Positions 8,040-64,000 of a stretch of 64,000 nt of DNA are shown here, piece by piece. Below the pieces are notes generated by a model that worked only from the letters and a program-made list of their open reading frames with translations, was not told the DNA's origin and did not search any database. Positions within the stretch are counted from its first letter, which is position 1. Each line of letters starts with the position of its first letter. A program made the translations under genes and the position numbers. This stretch comes from Streptomyces akebiae (GTDB lineage Bacteria; Actinomycetota; Actinomycetes; Streptomycetales; Streptomycetaceae): NCBI RefSeq assembly GCF_019599145.1, contig NZ_CP080647.1:3534001-3598000 (forward strand), read 5' to 3'.

Positions 8040-8900
8040 ATGCTCAGGCTGGGCAAGCGGGAATTCGGCCCGCACGAGCCGGTGATCATGGCGATCGTGA
8101 ACCGGACGCCGGACTCCTTCTACGACCAGGGAGCCACCTTCCGTGACGAGCCGGCGCTCGCGCGTGTGGAGCAGGCGGTCGCCGACGGCGCGGCCATCAT
8201 CGACATCGGCGGGGTGAAGGCCGGCCCCGGGGAGGAAGTGACCGCAGCGGAGGAGGCGCGGCGGACCGTGGGGTTCGTGGCGGAGGTGCGGCGGCGGTTT
8301 CCCGAGGTGATCATCAGCGTCGACACCTGGCGGCACGAGGTCGGTGAGGCCGTGTGCGAGGCCGGGGCGGATCTGCTCAACGACGCGTGGGGTGGGGTCG
8401 ATCCCCGGCTCGCCGAGGTCGCGGCACGGTATCGGGTGGGGCTGGTGTGTACGCACGCGGGCGGGACCGAGCCGCGTACCCGGCCGCATCGGGTCGAGTA
8501 CGACGACGTGATGGCCGACGTGCTGCGGGTGACCGTGGGGTTGGCGGAGCGGGCGGTGGCGTTGGGGGTGCCCCGGGAGTCCGTGATGATCGATCCGGGG
8601 CATGACTTCGGGAAGAACACGCGGCACAGTCTGGAGGCGACGCGGCGGTTGGGGGAGATGGTCGCGACGGGGTGGCCGGTGCTGGTGTCCCTGTCCAACA
8701 AGGACTTCGTGGGGGAGACGCTGGACAAGCCGGTGAAGGAGCGGGTGGTGGGGACGTTGGCGACCACCGCTGTCTCGGCCTGGCTGGGGGCTCAGGTGTA
8801 TCGGGTGCATGAGGTGGCTGAGACCCGGCAGGTGGTGGAGATGGTGGGGGCGATCGCGGGGTGGCACGAGCCTGCCGTTGCCCGGCGGGGGCTTGCCTAG
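8040..8900 (+). CDS. folP2: Dihydropteroate synthase homologue, FolP2 type
   Basis: 286 aa. ATG with GGGAGAGG upstream. The DHPS TIM barrel is recognisable: MAIVNRTPDSFYDQG, SVDTWRHEVGEAV, LLNDAWGG, MIDPGHDFGKNT and a KPVKERVVGTLA end. The pterin/pABA loop, normally DIGGESTRPG, reads DIGGVKAGPG, so the Ser-Thr-Arg of functional DHPS is absent. Mycobacterial FolP2, in the same gene neighbourhood, is reported to lack DHPS activity, so true folate synthesis by this protein is doubtful. A separate folP presumably exists elsewhere in the genome. Confidence 0.88.
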   Translation: MLRLGKREFGPHEPVIMAIVNRTPDSFYDQGATFRDEPALARVEQAVADGAAIIDIGGVKAGPGEEVTAAEEARRTVGFVAEVRRRFPEVIISVDTWRHEVGEAVCEAGADLLNDAWGGVDPRLAEVAARYRVGLVCTHAGGTEPRTRPHRVEYDDVMADVLRVTVGLAERAVALGVPRESVMIDPGHDFGKNTRHSLEATRRLGEMVATGWPVLVSLSNKDFVGETLDKPVKERVVGTLATTAVSAWLGAQVYRVHEVAETRQVVEMVGAIAGWHEPAVARRGLA

Positions 8901-9016
8901 TTCTTTTTCGCCCCCGCCGCCCCTACCCGTCCCGTCCTCAAAGGGGCTGCGCCCCTTTGCCCCCCGGCTGTCCCCCCCCGGCCCACTGATTCCGGCTGCC
9001 GGTCCGGTGGGGGTTC

Positions 9017-9050
9017 TCGCGCAGTTCCCCGCGCCCCTGAAGGCGCGGGG
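9017..9050. repeat. Dispersed Streptomyces intergenic repeat, copy 2
   Basis: TCGCGCAGTTCCCCGCGCCCC core, preceded by TCCGGTGGGGGTT as also found at 47750. It lies between the convergent folP2 and LOG genes and could form a hairpin with the following GGCGCGGGG. A second short hairpin (AAGGGGCTGCGCCCCTT, about 8940-8957) precedes it. Confidence 0.6.
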
Positions 9051-9062
9051 GTCGTCCGGGAG

Positions 9063-9821
9063 TTATCTGCCCGCCTCCTTCGAGACCAGGGCCACCGCCT
9101 CGTCGACGTCGTCCGTGACGTGGAAGAGCGTCAGGTCCTTCTCCGCGGCCTTGCCCTGGGCGATGAGGGTGTTGGTCAGCCAGTCGACGAGGCCGCCCCA
9201 GTAGGACTCGCCGAAGAGGACGATGGGGAAGCGCGTGACCTTCTGGGTCTGGACGAGGGTGAGGGCCTCGAAGAGTTCGTCGAGAGTGCCGAGGCCGCCG
9301 GGCAGCACCACGAAGCCCTGGGCGTACTTGACGAACATCATCTTCCGGACGAAGAAGTAGCGGAAGTTGAGGCCGATGTCGACGTATTGGTTCAGGCCCT
9401 GTTCGAAGGGGAGCTCGATGCCGAGGCCGACGGAGGTGCCGCCCGCTTCCAGGGCACCCTTGTTGGCCGCCTCCATCGCGCCCGGGCCGCCGCCGGTGAT
9501 GACGGCGAAGCCGGCTTCCACCAGGCCGCGGCCGAGCCGGACGCCCGCCTCGTACTCCGGTGAGTCGGTGGGAGTGCGGGCGGAGCCGAAGACACTGATC
9601 GCGGGCGGGAGTTCGGCGAGGGTGCCGAAACCCTCGATGAACTCGGACTGGATGCGCAGGACCCGCCAGGGGTCCGTGTGGACCCAGTCCGAGGGACCGC
9701 CCGCGTCCAGCAGCCGCTGGTCCGTCGTGCTCGCCTGAACCTGGCCGCGTCTGCGCAGCACCGGTCCGAGCCGCTGCTCCTCGGGTGGCTGCTTCTTGCC
9801 CTCGGGGTTGCCGGTCGCCAT
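9063..9821 (-). CDS. LOG-family Rossmann protein (cytokinin-activating enzyme type)
   Basis: 252 aa, ATG with GGAGGGAG upstream. It carries the LOG signatures GGGPGAMEAANKGA and PGGLGTLDELFEA, the nucleotide-monophosphate-binding PGGxGTxxE motif of phosphoribohydrolases. Characterised members release the base from N6-modified AMP. The mycobacterial homologue at the same position (Rv1205) is a LOG protein that makes cytokinins and is a proteasome substrate. The N-terminal 40 residues are polar and probably flexible. It is not in an evident operon. Confidence 0.88.
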   Translation of the reverse strand: MATGNPEGKKQPPEEQRLGPVLRRRGQVQASTTDQRLLDAGGPSDWVHTDPWRVLRIQSEFIEGFGTLAELPPAISVFGSARTPTDSPEYEAGVRLGRGLVEAGFAVITGGGPGAMEAANKGALEAGGTSVGLGIELPFEQGLNQYVDIGLNFRYFFVRKMMFVKYAQGFVVLPGGLGTLDELFEALTLVQTQKVTRFPIVLFGESYWGGLVDWLTNTLIAQGKAAEKDLTLFHVTDDVDEAVALVSKEAGR

Positions 9822-9894
9822 GTCCGCTCCCTCCGCCGTGCTGGTGGTTCACCTCAGCGTAGATCCATACGGGTTACGGACGGGGGACGTCAGC

Positions 9895-9924
9895 GTGTCC
9901 GGCGCCATCCGCCGCGCCGGACAC
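9895..9924 (-). terminator. Terminator hairpin after dapE
   Basis: GTGTCCGGCGC and GCGCCGGACAC flank an eight-base loop immediately beyond the dapE stop. Confidence 0.75.
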
Positions 9925-9925
9925 T

Positions 9926-11005
9926 TCACGCCGTCAGCCAGGACCTCAGGCGTTCCTCGCCCTTCAGGATCTTCGCCGTCTCCACCCGTTCGTCGCGTCG
10001 GTGCGCCAAGTGCGGGTTGCCGGGGCCGTAGTTGACGGCCGGGACGCCGAGCGCGCTGAAGCGGGAGACGTCCGTCCAGCCGTACTTGGGATGTGCCGTG
10101 CCGCCGACCGCCTCGATGAACGCCGCGGCCGCCGGGTGGGACAGGCCGGGCAGTGCGCCGGGGCTGTGGTCGTCGACGACGAACTCCTCGACCCCGCAGT
10201 CGGCGAAGACCTCGCGCACGTGGGCGATGGCCTCCTCCTCGCTGCGGTCGGGCGCGTAGCGGAAGTTGACCGACACGACGCACGCGTCGGGGATGACGTT
10301 GCCTGCCACGCCGCCCGAGATGCCGACGGCGTTCAGACCCTCGCGGTACTCCAGGCCGTCGATCACCGGGTGGCGCGGCTCGTAGGCGGCCAGCTTCGCC
10401 AGGATCGGGGCTGCCGCGTGGATGGCGTTGGAGCCCATCCAGCCGCGGGCGGAGTGGGCGCGCTCGCCCTTGGTCGTCAGCAGGACCCGCAGGGTGCCCT
10501 GGCAGCCGCCCTCCACCTCGCCGTCGGTGGGCTCCAGGAGGACCGCGAAGTCGCCCGCGAGCCACTCGGGGTGCTCCTCGGAGACGTGCTTCAGGCCGTT
10601 CAGGTCCGCGGCGACCTCTTCGTTGTCGTAGAAGACGAAGGTCAGGTCGCGGTTGGGGGCCGGGACCGTGGCCGCGATGCGCAGCTGCACCGCGACGCCG
10701 GACTTCATGTCGCAGGTGCCGCAGCCCCACAGGACGCCGTCGTCGTCGAGGCGGGAGGGGACGTTGTCCGCGATGGGCACGGTGTCGATGTGGCCGGCCA
10801 GGATCACGCGCTCCGCGCGGCCGAGGTCGGTACGGGCGACGATGTTGTTGCCGTACCGGTCGACCGTGAGGTGCGGCAGGGCGCGCAGGGCGGTCTCGAT
10901 CGCGTCCGCGAGGGGCTTCTCGGTGCCGCTCTCGGAGGGGAAGTCGACGAGCTGCGCGGTCAGCCGCGCGGCGTCCAGCGTGAGGTCAATCGGGGTCTCG
11001 GCCAT
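9926..11005 (-). CDS. dapE: Succinyl-diaminopimelate desuccinylase
   Basis: 359 aa from ATG at 11005, preceded by GGTCGGGGAC. M20 metallopeptidase fold: GHIDTVP and CGTCDMKSGVA supply metal ligands, FYDNEEVAA the catalytic/metal Glu, then LLEPTDGEVEGGCQGTL, and GWTDVSRFSALGVPAVNYGPGNP near the end. It converts N-succinyl-LL-diaminopimelate to LL-diaminopimelate in lysine and peptidoglycan precursor synthesis. The preceding step is encoded by dapC 2 kb away on the same strand. It matches TIGR01900-type actinobacterial DapE in length. Confidence 0.92.
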   Translation of the reverse strand: MAETPIDLTLDAARLTAQLVDFPSESGTEKPLADAIETALRALPHLTVDRYGNNIVARTDLGRAERVILAGHIDTVPIADNVPSRLDDDGVLWGCGTCDMKSGVAVQLRIAATVPAPNRDLTFVFYDNEEVAADLNGLKHVSEEHPEWLAGDFAVLLEPTDGEVEGGCQGTLRVLLTTKGERAHSARGWMGSNAIHAAAPILAKLAAYEPRHPVIDGLEYREGLNAVGISGGVAGNVIPDACVVSVNFRYAPDRSEEEAIAHVREVFADCGVEEFVVDDHSPGALPGLSHPAAAAFIEAVGGTAHPKYGWTDVSRFSALGVPAVNYGPGNPHLAHRRDERVETAKILKGEERLRSWLTA

Positions 11006-11135
11006 GTCCCCGACCCTAACGCGCCGCAGGGTCCGGGCCTCCCGGCGAGTGGATCCGGTCACTTCCGCACCCCTGTTCACATCACTGTTCACAACTCCTG
11101 CACGAGTGCCATTACCGTCCAGTACCTTGGACCGC

Positions 11136-12143
11136 GTGTCGGAGCCGTACCCCTTCCCCCCAGGTCCCCGTCCCCGCCGTCGCGGCCGTCGTGTGCTGCA
11201 GTTCATGGCGGCCTTCGTCGTGCTCGCCGCGATCGGGGCGTATCTCACCGTGCAGTATCTGACCGGTGGAAACGGCACCCCGCGGTGTGTGGTCGTGTCC
11301 GGGGCCGGCGACGGGGCGTCGTACGAGTTCACGCCCGAGCAGGCGGCCAACGCGGCGACGATCTCGGCGGTCGGCACCGCGCGCGAGCTGCCCGAGCGGG
11401 CCGTGACGATCGCGCTGGCGACCGCACTGCAGGAGTCGAGCCTGCGCAACATCGCGCACGGCGACCGGGACTCGCTCGGCCTCTTCCAGCAGCGGCCGTC
11501 GCAGGGCTGGGGCACCGAGCAGCAGATCCAGGACCCGGTGTACGCGGCGGGTGAGTTCTACGAGCACCTCGTCAAGGTCGACGGCTACGAGCAGTTGCCG
11601 CTGACGGTGGCCGCCCAGCGCGTGCAGCGCAGCGGCTATCCGGAGGCGTACGCCAAGCACGAGCCCGACGCCACGCTGCTAGCCGCCGCGCTGACCGGGC
11701 GGTCGGCGGCCACGCTGACGTGCGAGGGGCGCCGGGACACGACCGGCACCGGCACCGCCTACGCGGGCGGCCCGGACGCCGTGCGCAGCGCGCTCGCCCG
11801 GGACTTCGGGGACGACGCGTTCGAGTCGGCCGCGGCGGTGGTGAGCTCCGAGGACGGCGCCTCCGCCGAGGCGAGTGCGGCACCGAGTCCGAGCGTCTCC
11901 CCCGCCGCCGGGACCGTGACCATCCCCCTCGGGGACGCCGAGGAGGCGGACCGGGCCCGGCGCGGCTGGAAGCTGGCCCACTGGGCCGTGGCCAACTCCT
12001 CCCGGCTCGGCGTCGAGCGCGTCTCCTACGCGGGCCGGGAGTGGGTCGCCGAAGGACGGGCCGGCGCGTGGCGCAAGGCCCGGGGCGCGGCGGGCGGTGC
12101 GGTGGGCACCACCACCGAGGTCCGAATCGTCACTGGACAGTAG
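11136..12143 (+). CDS. Membrane-anchored protein with lysozyme-like domain, function unproven
   Basis: 335 aa. GTG at 11136, because the frame becomes codon-biased and protein-like only from VSEPYPFPPG; no good Shine-Dalgarno is visible, so a leaderless transcript is possible. A Pro/Arg-rich start precedes one membrane helix (VLQFMAAFVVLAAIGAYLTVQYL). The outer region has ALATALQESSLRNIAHGDRDS and LGLFQQRPSQGWG, the Glu-bearing pattern of lysozyme-like/transglycosylase folds. A C-terminal segment WKLAHWAVANSSRLGVERVSY follows an Ala/Ser/Pro linker. The motif suggests peptidoglycan binding or cleavage, but this is an inference. Confidence 0.75.
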   Translation: MSEPYPFPPGPRPRRRGRRVLQFMAAFVVLAAIGAYLTVQYLTGGNGTPRCVVVSGAGDGASYEFTPEQAANAATISAVGTARELPERAVTIALATALQESSLRNIAHGDRDSLGLFQQRPSQGWGTEQQIQDPVYAAGEFYEHLVKVDGYEQLPLTVAAQRVQRSGYPEAYAKHEPDATLLAAALTGRSAATLTCEGRRDTTGTGTAYAGGPDAVRSALARDFGDDAFESAAAVVSSEDGASAEASAAPSPSVSPAAGTVTIPLGDAEEADRARRGWKLAHWAVANSSRLGVERVSYAGREWVAEGRAGAWRKARGAAGGAVGTTTEVRIVTGQ

Positions 12144-61126: not shown

Positions 61127-61517
61127 GGATGCGGATACTCCTTGCGCAGAGCAGAGGGGAACTGACGTACGACTGGGCGCATGGTAAGCGGGTGGCGGGG
61201 GCGGGCGATACGCCGGGCGGCCCAGAACGTCCACGGGGGCCACGGGCATCCCTGGCGGCACGCATCTCCCCGGGCGTCACGGACCTCCCCTGGCGACATG
61301 TGCCGCACGGCCTGCATGGGCTTCCCCTGGCCTGCATGGGCTGCCCCGGCCTGCACGGGCTTCCCCGGCCGGGCATGGGCTGCCCCGGGCGGCACGGGCT
61401 TCCCCGGCCGGGCATGGGCTTCCCCGGGCGGCACGGGCTGCCCCCCGGCCGACACCAGCCTCGGAACGCGCCCCGGCCGCCCCTGCCGACCCGCCCCACC
61501 CGAACTAATCTTCGTTC
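61127..61517. other. Divergent intergenic region with 39-bp tandem repeats
   Basis: 391 bases. A long tandem-repeat array (61300-61450) separates the divergent promoters of the DUF4190 gene and the PLP enzyme gene. Confidence 0.6.
61300..61450. repeat. 39-bp tandem repeats with half-unit sub-repeats
   Basis: Copies of a 39-bp unit (GCACGGGCTTCCCCGGCC ...) begin at 61353, 61392 and 61431, with diverged half-units from 61300 (GCATGGGCTGCCCCGG, GCATGGGCTTCCCC). No spacer sequence separates them. Confidence 0.85.
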
Positions 61518-62624
61518 ATGACCCCTCTGCCGGATCGCTTCTGCCCGACGGACGGCACGCGCGTCCCCGCCGCCTCCCTCGCCTGGTGCTGCCCGGCCTG
61601 CCGAGGCCCCCTGGACCTGGACTTCGCGCCCACACCGGCATCGCTCAAGTCCCTCTCCGGCCGGGTGAACTCGCTCTGGCGCTACGCGGAATGCCTCCCG
61701 CTGGCGTCGCCCACCGTCTCTTTGGGCGAGGGCCGGACCCCGCTCGTCGAGCTGCGCGAGGGCATCCGGGCCAAGCTGGACTTCCTGATGCCGACGCTGT
61801 CCTTCAAGGACCGGGGCGCGGTGCTCCTCGCCGAACTGGCCCTGCGGCTCGGGCCCCGGCAGGTGATCGCCGACAGCAGCGGCAACGCGGGCACGGCGGT
61901 CGCCGCGTACTGCGCACGGGCCGCGCTGCCCTGCACGGTGTACGTCCCGGCCGGCACGTCGGACAAGAAGCTGGAGCAGATCGGGGCGCACGGCGCGCAG
62001 CTCCACCTCGTCGACGGCGACCGCGAGGCCACGGCCCGGGTCGCCCGCGCGGCGGCGGACGAGGACGGTGTCTTCTACGCGTCGCACGTCTACAACCCGT
62101 ACTTCCTGCACGGCACCAAGACGTACGTCCACGAGTTGTGGGAGGACCTCGGCGGCCGCCTCCCCGACGTGATAGTGGTCCCGGTGGGCAACGGCACGCT
62201 GCTGCTGGGCGCGGCCCTCGCCGTCGCGGAACTGCACGCCGCGGGCCTCATCGACCGCCGCCCCGCCCTCTACGCCGTCCAGTCCGCCGCCGTGGCACCG
62301 CTCGCCCACGCCTGGACCGAGGGCGCCGACGACCTCGTCGGGACCACGCCCACCGCACCCACCTTCGCCGAGGGCATCGCCATCCCCCGCCCGCCCCGGG
62401 CCCGCCAGATCCTCCGCGCCGTCCGCGACTCCGGCGGCGCCTTCCTCACCGTGACGGAGGATCAGATCCGCCACGCCCAACGCGACCTGGCCTCCCGCGG
62501 CCTGTACGTCGAGTCCACGGGCGTGGCCTGCTGGGCGGCGGTGCGTGACGGAGCGCTGGGGTCGCGCACGGCGGTGGTGCCGTTGTGCGGCGCGGGCGTG
62601 AAGACGGGGCTGGCGGGGAGCTGA
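61518..62624 (+). CDS. Threonine synthase-like PLP enzyme
   Basis: 368 aa. N-terminal zinc-ribbon-like CPTDGTRVPAASLAWCCPAC, then PLP domain: FLMPTLSFKDRGAVLLAELA carries the PLP-Lys in SFKDRGA, DSSGNAGTAVAAYCARAALP the phosphate-binding region, VIVVPVGNGTLLLG the second PLP motif. Threonine synthase (class II short form) is the closest assignment, but related cysteate/diaminopropionate synthases share these features. No other threonine genes are near. Confidence 0.8.
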   Translation: MTPLPDRFCPTDGTRVPAASLAWCCPACRGPLDLDFAPTPASLKSLSGRVNSLWRYAECLPLASPTVSLGEGRTPLVELREGIRAKLDFLMPTLSFKDRGAVLLAELALRLGPRQVIADSSGNAGTAVAAYCARAALPCTVYVPAGTSDKKLEQIGAHGAQLHLVDGDREATARVARAAADEDGVFYASHVYNPYFLHGTKTYVHELWEDLGGRLPDVIVVPVGNGTLLLGAALAVAELHAAGLIDRRPALYAVQSAAVAPLAHAWTEGADDLVGTTPTAPTFAEGIAIPRPPRARQILRAVRDSGGAFLTVTEDQIRHAQRDLASRGLYVESTGVACWAAVRDGALGSRTAVVPLCGAGVKTGLAGS

Positions 62625-62859: not shown

Positions 62860-63169
62860 GTGGTTCCCCTCCCCAACCTGATGTGCCGACCTGCTGAAGA
62901 ACTGCCCACCCCAAGAGATTGACACCCCAAACCCGCATGTTCTCGACAGGACGGCATCAGGACGTGCTACCGACCGAGCGGGAGGTCCCTCGGCCCGCGC
63001 CGACAGGTGCCGTGCCGACATAGGGCACGAATTTCCCTCCGGGGAGCCTCCCGAATGCGTAACAGGGCTGCTCTACGACTAGGCTCTGTCCCGCCGCCCG
63101 GTGCCCCGGCGTGGCACCGGCAACAAGCACGCCCCACGGTCGGCGCATGCGAGGAGAAAGGCACGGCAG
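62860..63169. other. Intergenic region upstream of fxsA
   Basis: 310 bases; probably holds the promoter of the fxs locus. Only weak open frames are present; no motif can be named. Confidence 0.4.
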
Positions 63170-63340
63170 GTGCTGAGAGAAACGAGCGGCCCCGAGTACG
63201 TCTCGGGCCTGGTGGACATCACCGACCTGCCCATGGACGCGCTGGAGGACCTGCCGGACACGGTCCTCGCTTCGGTGCTCCACGATGTGCGATTCCCGTC
63301 GGGCGAGAGCTTCGCCGCGTTCGCGTCGGCGCTTCTCTGA
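63170..63340 (+). CDS. fxsA: Putative FxsA RiPP precursor peptide
   Basis: 56 aa from GTG at 63170 with GGAGAAAGG upstream. It reads SGLVDITDLPMDALEDLPDT, then VLASVLHDVRFPSGESFAAF and ends FASALL. This has the layout of FxSxx-COOH precursors: an acidic leader with conserved LVDI/VPLDxL-type segments and a C-terminal F-x-S core. In most precursors F is five residues from the end; here it is six, one Leu extra. The following gene encodes the TIR-like FxsC, which supports the identification. The modifying radical-SAM enzyme FxsB is not within the window. Confidence 0.72.
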   Translation: MLRETSGPEYVSGLVDITDLPMDALEDLPDTVLASVLHDVRFPSGESFAAFASALL

Positions 63341-63502
63341 CACGCCGGCATCCCCCTCCTCGCTGCCTTTCGGCCAACTACGATCCGTTCCCCCGTGGTG
63401 AGTTGAGCACCGGCCCAGCGGGGTATCACGTTGCCACGCACGTATCCCGGCTCATAGGCGCGGTGAAACGCCTGCGGCCGGATACGACGGCCGGGGGGTG
63501 CT

Positions 63503-64000
63503 TTGGAGCGAGAGCCGTACTTTTTCCTCAGCTACGCGCGCCGGGACGACCGGGGTAGCGCCTTCGTGCGTCGTTTCTACGACGATCTGTTGGCGGAGCT
63601 GGGCCGCCTGGGTGCGGACTGCAGCGGACAACAGCCGTTCCTCGACATCGAGCGGATCGGCCTGGGCATGGACTGGGAGAGCGCGCTCGGCAGCGAGATC
63701 GGGCACTGTCGGGCCCTGGTGGCCCTCTGCTCGCCCGCTTATGTCAACAGTCCCTACTGCGGCAAGGAATGGGCCGCCTTCGAATCCCGGCTGCTGAGGT
63801 ATCGCGAGCAGACCGACATCGAGGTACCGGCGCTCATACCGGTCCTGTGGGTCCCCCTGCACAACGCGATGCCGCCGGAGATCAGCAAGTACCAGTACTT
63901 CGAACCGCCGATGGGTCAGGAGTACCTGGAGCAGGGGCTGATGGGACTGTTGCGTTCCGCTCCGGGCGGCCGCGCCTACCGCGCCGTCCTGGAACTCGTC
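63503..64000 (+). CDS. fxsC: FxsC-like TIR-domain protein (partial, cut by window end)
   Basis: 166 codons to the window edge, from a TTG at 63503, because the frame is closed upstream at 63464 and no ATG/GTG is available. It reads EREPYFFLSYARRDDRGSAF, then FYDDLLAELGRLGADC and CRALVALCSPAYVNSPYCGK followed by EWAAFESRLLRYREQTDIEV. This is the TIR-like core of FxsC proteins, which accompany FxSxx precursors and radical-SAM FxsB. Its role in the system is not established. It is 162 bases downstream of fxsA. Confidence 0.8.
   Translation, partial: MEREPYFFLSYARRDDRGSAFVRRFYDDLLAELGRLGADCSGQQPFLDIERIGLGMDWESALGSEIGHCRALVALCSPAYVNSPYCGKEWAAFESRLLRYREQTDIEVPALIPVLWVPLHNAMPPEISKYQYFEPPMGQEYLEQGLMGLLRSAPGGRAYRAVLELV

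Follow-up and report, generated by a model that had tools for sequence, protein, structure and literature searches.

A complete Fxs cassette in Streptomyces akebiae with a longer precursor tail and a predicted hydroxylase on its own chain

What does an Fxs cassette make when its precursor peptide does not end as the family name says it should? The question is raised by a locus at the right edge of a 64,000-nucleotide stretch of DNA from the soil bacterium Streptomyces akebiae (here called the window; G000:C1:3534001-3598000, within a 10.5 Mb genome). A preliminary description had read there a 56-residue FxsA-type precursor followed by a TIR-like FxsC protein, and had predicted a radical SAM gene, fxsB, past position 64000. 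We find that the window locus (labelled L004) begins a complete Fxs cassette of five genes in the order fxsA-fxsC-fxsT-fxsB-fxsH, which starts at the right edge of the window and otherwise lies beyond 64000, and in which FxsA, FxsB, FxsC, FxsT and the HExxH domain each score above curated models. For the whole, we consider it moderately probable that this cassette makes a hydroxylated cyclophane peptide kept inside the cell for FxsC and FxsT, that the length of the peptide's tail is free, and that an AAC(3) domain fused to the hydroxylase is being lost. The features are listed below; coordinates above 64000 continue the window numbering past its right edge (L004 position + 58000).

63155..63161, forward strand: AGAAAGG, 8 bases 5' of the GTG of fxsA and likely its ribosome-binding site.
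63170..63340, forward strand: fxsA, 56-aa precursor of the FxSxx-COOH type, GTG start (TIGR04268, 40.9 bits; proportion of nonsynonymous differences, pN, below that of synonymous differences, pS).
63320..63328, forward strand: F-A-S, predicted site of a three-residue cyclophane from Phe to Ser (from the sequence, the family names and homology to ChlB).
63329..63337, forward strand: A-L-L, three residues past FxS where the canonical number is two (from the sequence; of 13 close homologues, 12 have ALL here and one has ALV).
63503..64000, forward strand, gene end at 64804: fxsC, TTG start, with the TIR-domain N-terminal part in the window (NF040588; modelled TIR fold).
63767..63769, forward strand: Glu89 codon of FxsC, aligning with the Glu of the plant-TIR motif S-x-W-C-x-x-E.
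64794-68765: fxsT (ATPase-TIR-NB-ARC-TPR).
68856-70118: fxsB (radical SAM/SPASM).
70115-71911: fxsH, HExxH-AAC(3) fusion gene, 598 codons.

After its start residue FxsA reads LRETSGPEYVSGLVDITDLPMDALEDLPDTVLASVLHDVRFPSGESFAAFASALL, with the C-terminus F-A-S-A-L-L and a stop codon at 63338-63340, and its score against the curated FxSxx-COOH model TIGR04268 (cut-off 28) bears out the precursor that had been claimed. Seven aligned strains share the GTG and the stop codon. The AGAAAGG is identical in five of the seven, with one base altered in L114 and L121, and the DNA further 5' differs in length out of frame between them. A GTG start fits this pattern, since the codon is kept in all seven strains with AGAAAGG just 5' of it and the upstream length shifts out of frame. 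Judged by its substitutions, fxsA is under constraint at the protein level: comparing the window with five relatives gives a pN of 0.02-0.11 and a pS of 0.09-0.36, and against L122, whose gene is one codon shorter and whose N-terminus was compared out of register, the values are 0.16 and 0.21. A frameshift or wrong stop was ruled out as the cause of the extra residue because both the stop and that residue are identical in 7/7 strains, and a lone precursor locus without a maturase was ruled out by the fxsB gene downstream.

The literal F-x-S-x-x-COOH end is lacking in the window FxsA, which ends F-x-S-x-x-x-COOH (FASALL), so the one-residue shift that had been described is real. The same description took this C-terminus to be atypical, and that view does not hold. 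Among 5.8 billion proteins searched, 13 close homologues were found, 12 ending in SALL and one in SALV, some of which share their species with our set of loci (S. canus, S. turgidiscabies, S. geranii) and are not independent samples. Among 26 precursors of the window clade, FxS is followed by 2 (5 precursors), 3 (7), 4 (7), 5 (5), 9 (1) or 10 (1) residues, 21 of them thus carrying 3 to 10. The motif after F-x is SAL in 21, SSI in 3 and SSL in 2, and variation starts beyond it. Because the extra residue is shared by 13/13 close homologues and tails vary throughout the clade, the FASALL ending is, by comparison of these precursors, normal for its lineage. We take the literal end as a name and not a defining feature, since the model is passed without it and longer tails occur elsewhere in the family. 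One precursor of the set, at L140:1377-1610, ends FQSALDHSALDH, as though its tail had been duplicated.

The clades come from a survey of the genus in which FxsA matches were found in 67 of 150 genomes (above the cut-off in 54). There were 90 matches, 71 above and 19 below the cut-off, and surroundings of up to 18 kb were taken for 76 of them (69 of the 71 and 7 of the 19). The two above-cut-off matches outside the 69 are the window's own (L004) and G028:C166, which was left out. Adding L004 and another 33 loci, reached by way of the HExxH-AAC(3) protein, to the 76 gives 110 loci (108 without the duplicates L118 and L126), which were classified by their domains. A precursor was assigned in 90 of the 108; the other 18 are L038 (its end, FESAL, was read separately), L064, L067, L075, L076, L078, L088, L090, L091, L098, L099, L107, L113, L137, L138, L139, L141 and L144. 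A quick IQ-TREE phylogeny of 110 radical SAM domains, rooted at its midpoint, places the window-type rows in one branch of 28 (SH-like approximate likelihood-ratio test, SH-aLRT, 94), nested in a branch of 32 (99) that adds two pairs from loci with two radical SAM genes; a branch of 17 rows containing the window has an SH-aLRT of 99. The neighbouring branch is that of the loci with fused FxsB and HExxH domains and holds 43 rows, 40 of them fused and 3 not (two of those 3 cut by contig ends).

Tail length behaves differently across these branches. Exactly two residues follow FxS in 31/31 precursors of the fused class with FxsC, 18 of which were assigned by a pattern (1 to 9 residues past FxS) and 13 by a hidden Markov model (overhang up to 12); this class was drawn nearly all by the TIGR04268 model, whose C-terminus may favour two-residue tails, and the window-type loci come mostly from a different draw, through the HExxH-AAC(3) protein. 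For loci lacking FxsC (mostly FxsA-FxsB-H-TPR; 32 rows) the tail has two residues in 23, three in 7, and seven after a doubtful motif in 1, the motif being absent in 1. L105 and L106 show no clear FxS, and several rows without FxsC carry F-x-N or F-x-A. At least 8 changes of tail length are required within the window clade, and 9 across 87 rows. Tail length is thus not fixed in the window branch, so its maturation enzymes or receptor should not need a carboxylate at exactly two residues past Ser, unless the tail is trimmed.

Trimming is the rival that survives best: the mature peptide would end FxSAL in all clades, and the rest would be a follower removed by a host carboxypeptidase to give the canonical FxSxx-COOH. 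The keeping of S-A-L, S-S-I or S-S-L in 26/26 window-clade precursors, with variation only after it, is what one would expect of such a follower. However, none of the five genes matches a carboxypeptidase model, and 12 of the 13 close homologues retain the last Leu (the other has Val), a conservation not required of a discarded residue. We regard this explanation as unlikely, if reasonable.

The enzymes of the cassette point to the chemistry. FxsB scores 450 bits on TIGR04269 (cut-off 370) and lies where it had been predicted; its start is 5.5 kb past the end of fxsA, with fxsC and fxsT intervening, well inside the roughly 10 kb within which a radical SAM gene had been expected. It resembles the radical SAM domain of ChlB (9gm3) at 225 bits over residues 24-406, and the CxxxCxxC of the first stretch is kept. 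Cyclophane chemistry is expected because the names of the models state it (cyclophane-containing RiPP peptide for TIGR04268, RiPP standing for ribosomally synthesized and post-translationally modified peptide, and cyclophane-forming maturase for TIGR04269); the bond in the window is a prediction from them.

The gene after fxsB encodes a predicted hydroxylase. The two are separate open reading frames (ORFs), the ATG of fxsH overlapping the stop of fxsB by 4 bases (ATGA), and the window locus does not have the fused FxsBH/ChlBH layout with both domains on one chain. The H protein scores 150 bits on the mod_HExxH model TIGR04267 (cut-off 40) with its motif positions intact, and the nearest solved chain to the HExxH part is 22nu (170 bits), ChlH giving 23 bits. 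When the HExxH-AAC(3) protein of S. canus was modelled with AlphaFold2, the mean predicted local distance difference test score was 54.3, much of the hydroxylase part scored under 50, and the model was not used. Window-type H proteins carry HEFLH in 29/29, and across 57 intact HExxH domains on separate chains the second His, the Arg and others are invariant. Within the fused class with FxsC, HE..H is lost in 27 of 31, and those 27 also lack the other His and the Arg; the four with an intact HExxH (L036, L037, L068, L079) all have two-residue tails. NCBIfam names a matching form, FxsBH with an inactivated beta-hydroxylase extension. Going by these motifs, the window retains a predicted hydroxylase that most fused relatives have lost. 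In loci of Kitasatospora and some of Streptomyces (L129-L133, L135, L138, L140), a window-type set precedes a second FxsB-HExxH gene, of the fused kind, and an AAC(3) gene, and HEFQH is intact in 8/8 of these second copies.

The other half of the fxsH product is an AAC(3) domain, which passes the Pfam model Antibiotic_NAT PF02522 at 191 bits (cut-off 25) and stays below the cut-off of the NCBIfam model AAC_3 (154 bits; cut-off 270). Eleven distinct other loci also encode HExxH and AAC(3) on one chain (L112-L117, L119, L121, L123, L124 and L040, the last on the same contig as L118). Across 392 genus genomes, a match spanning both parts occurs in at least three (the window's own, G323, G014), in at least two others the match extends into some of the AAC(3) part (G223, G343), and at least six or seven (G222, G079, G182, G158, G065, G261, perhaps G273) have a window-type H match without AAC(3); up to three candidates were scored per genome, and these counts are lower bounds. 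Compared with the other eight, the AAC(3) parts of the window, L112 and L121 lack 21 and 15 residues. The ratio of nonsynonymous to synonymous substitution rates (dN/dS) among these three is 0.57, 0.54 and 0.65 for AAC(3) versus 0.34, 0.34 and 0.39 for the hydroxylase part, and in five pairs of intact forms it is 0.23-0.28 versus 0.20-0.38. No AAC(3) match was found in the stretch of L122 examined, L136 keeps a remnant of 35 residues, and the AAC(3) frame of L120 differs from its HExxH frame. On this comparative pattern the AAC(3) domain of the window looks to be decaying: an ancestor joined it to the hydroxylase, the window subclade is now losing it, and it is therefore probably dispensable here.

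Those deletions, raised ratios and losses speak against a working acetyltransferase essential to the product, whether by N-acetylation of the peptide or by self-protection. Such an enzyme would account for the HLAE and S-x-HP motifs kept in 11/11 aligned fused relatives, and for the stand-alone AAC(3) genes in 15 of the 31 fused-FxsBH loci with FxsC (0/4 of those with an intact HExxH); on balance we find it rather improbable. In all 11 fusion loci that have a precursor, the window among them, the last 34 precursor residues contain no Lys, which would leave an N-terminus or a hydroxyl as the only places for an acetyl group. This absence does not single out the fusion, because Lys is also missing in 5/7 clade loci without a detected AAC(3) and in 8/8 with a separate one. 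Many genomes of the genus have a separate AAC(3)-like gene (e.g., G000:C1:7930925-7931671), about 53% identical to the fused domain and a possible source of the fusion.

The TIR-like protein read after fxsA, beyond a gap of 162 bases, is FxsC by both of its models. FxsC_Nterm NF040588 (cut-off 130) gives 180.6 bits for the part in the window and 190.9 for the full gene, and FxsC_Cterm TIGR04276 (cut-off 55) gives 178.6 for the full gene past the window edge. A non-Fxs TIR protein was ruled out, the generic TIR_2 model reaching 52 bits; the better match to another TIR family that would have told against FxsC was not seen. An FxsT-like NTPase, sought beyond 64000, was found there at 974 bits on NF040586 (cut-off 300). 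Further matches in the cassette are the NCBIfam KGGVGR ATPase model (127 bits; cut-off 90) and, from Pfam, Radical_SAM, TIR_2 (in both FxsC and FxsT), NB-ARC, TPR and Antibiotic_NAT. In a structure model of the S. canus relative the FxsC N-terminus has a TIR fold, and Glu89 is the catalytic-type Glu of S-x-x-C-x-x-E, invariant in 24 aligned relatives, so that FxsC has both the fold and the Glu of a TIR domain. A structure search with a profile of the 24 relatives led to TIR as a weak match (best E 0.00035), and a single-sequence search returned no TIR structure. A defence or signalling role for this TIR-type protein, as suggested in the preliminary description, is plausible. PADLOC gave partial or marginal matches only (FxsT N-terminus to PDC-M28B, FxsB to viperin, FxsC to RTasHEPN with E 0.0054), and these are not counted as evidence of defence.

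In the mechanism that we favour, FxsB, as a radical SAM/SPASM enzyme of the ChlB type, would link the side chains of Phe and Ser in F-A-S into a three-residue cyclophane, and the separate HExxH protein, with its conserved motif positions intact, would then hydroxylate the peptide; both steps are proposed from homology. More tentatively, the modified peptide may remain intracellular, where FxsC, a TIR protein, and FxsT, which is NLR-like, may respond to it as a ligand or guard signal. It is taken to stay internal because the five genes include no transporter or peptidase: NCBIfam and Pfam scans of the five proteins gave no match to exporter, leader-peptidase or carboxypeptidase models.

Several points weigh against this mechanism. 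Leader removal and export could be carried out by proteins encoded elsewhere. No description of the product of this Fxs class was found in the titles and abstract openings of mostly open-access literature. Promoter and terminator scans upstream of fxsA and in the fxsA-fxsC gap gave nothing. The case for AAC(3) decay rests on few strains, and dN/dS is also raised for L113-L114 (0.47 vs 0.30), which lack the deletions, and for L004-L114 (0.49 vs 0.30), from which relaxation seems to predate the deletions.

The surroundings of the cassette bear on its function as well. When six window-flanking genes were sought in 17 related loci, the upstream neighbours appeared only in L136 (98% and 81%). L112, L116 and L119 gave single distant matches (38-52%) to window-flanking dehydrogenase genes, and 13 of the 17 had none of the six, L120 and L040 being short contigs with the flank mostly out of view. 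The mobile unit seems to be the five genes. Upstream in the window, at 61290-61450, imperfect GC-rich tandem copies with a unit like GGCACGGGCTTCCCCGGCCGGGCATGG precede a threonine-synthase-like gene at 61518.

A secreted antibacterial RiPP, with FxsC and FxsT as immunity or regulatory proteins, has precedent in that some radical-SAM cross-linked RiPPs, darobactin for example, are reported to be antibacterial (PMC9055067). It fits poorly with five genes that give no exporter model match and with six tested flanking genes common to only 1 of 17 related loci, and we think it doubtful. We hold it very unlikely that the HExxH enzyme cuts the tail oxidatively at the small residue past FxS, in the way PflC and PosC act on the Ala of ARMD, to leave an FxS amide, which would make tail length neutral: A, S or G follows F-x-S (or its N/A variants) in 86/88 precursors, tail length varies in the clade with the intact hydroxylase, and PflC and PosC are reported to cleave before Ala with an extended tail being no barrier, but by the same account Ser at the PosA cleavage position led to hydroxylation without cleavage (PMC12636437), 22/88 precursors have Ser there, and the fused FxsBH loci with FxsC and an intact HExxH have two-residue tails in 4/4. 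Little more than an outside chance is given to a version in which Fxs peptides are internal guard ligands of the TIR/NLR pair read through the F-x-S-A-L cyclophane and not the free C-terminus, and in which the intact alpha-ketoglutarate (aKG)-HExxH enzyme of the window clade may complete the ligand through an oxidative cut of the tail, placed at the small residue that follows the cyclophane.

Under the curated models (TIGR04268, TIGR04269, NF040588, TIGR04276, NF040586), with FxsA, FxsB, both FxsC domains and FxsT above their cut-offs, the window locus is by its sequence a member of the Fxs system that lacks the literal feature of the name and varies in layout: three residues, not two, follow FxS, and the HExxH domain stands on its own chain, fused to AAC(3) instead of FxsB. 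The stand-alone peptide-processing systems of Kaur et al. 2020 comprise a small FxSxx protein, a radical SAM-SPASM protein, a zincin-like protein there termed a peptidase, and an AP-ATPase with TPR and a MinD/ParA-like domain (PMC7159879), and the window cassette matches those components. Those passages of its main text that were found to mention acetyltransferases or aminoglycosides concern other proteins and not AAC(3). Later work describes such proteins as hydroxylases that use aKG, with oxidative cutting of peptide tails as a further activity of two of them (PMC12636437), and ChlB/ChlH as a radical SAM cyclophane synthase and an aKG-HExxH hydroxylase (Morishita 2024, as cited in PMC12636437). 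The window FxsB is like ChlB, whereas the likeness of its HExxH part to ChlH is weak, and in the window the radical SAM and HExxH domains are separate proteins. FxsC shares the TIR fold and S-x-x-C-x-x-E with TIR-NB-ARC immune receptors and SPARTA TIR-APAZ, and FxsT has TIR, NB-ARC and TPR; the window differs from these systems in carrying TIR on two proteins and in the second alpha/beta domain of FxsC. The titles and abstract openings searched yielded nothing that connects AAC(3) with Fxs or deals with the length of Fxs tails.

Other layouts occur close by. Four Fxs loci, each with its own FxsA gene, lie in the window genome (G000:C1 1104094, 2221366, 3597212, 5200136) and show three layouts or more; their precursors end, in the same order, FESAL (L038), FQSSL (L036), FASALL (the window) and FQSSV (L037). 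L038 and L090 have two radical SAM genes around fxsC-fxsT, which branch separately, with no HExxH match in the stretch examined. In L113 of S. fulvoviolaceus (8193-11803), tblastn with the window FxsB aligned no more than residues 234-420, and the stretch examined yielded no fxsC, fxsT or fxsA; this copy is rearranged or decayed.

Fxs loci are common in the genus, yet in the same titles and abstract openings no paper was found that settles their purpose. A tail fixed at two residues with the HExxH mostly lost, against a free tail with the HExxH intact, offers a handle on which enzyme or receptor reads the C-terminus. With its Lys-free precursor and eroding acetyltransferase domain, this locus should also have a chemistry that is easier to test than in related loci.
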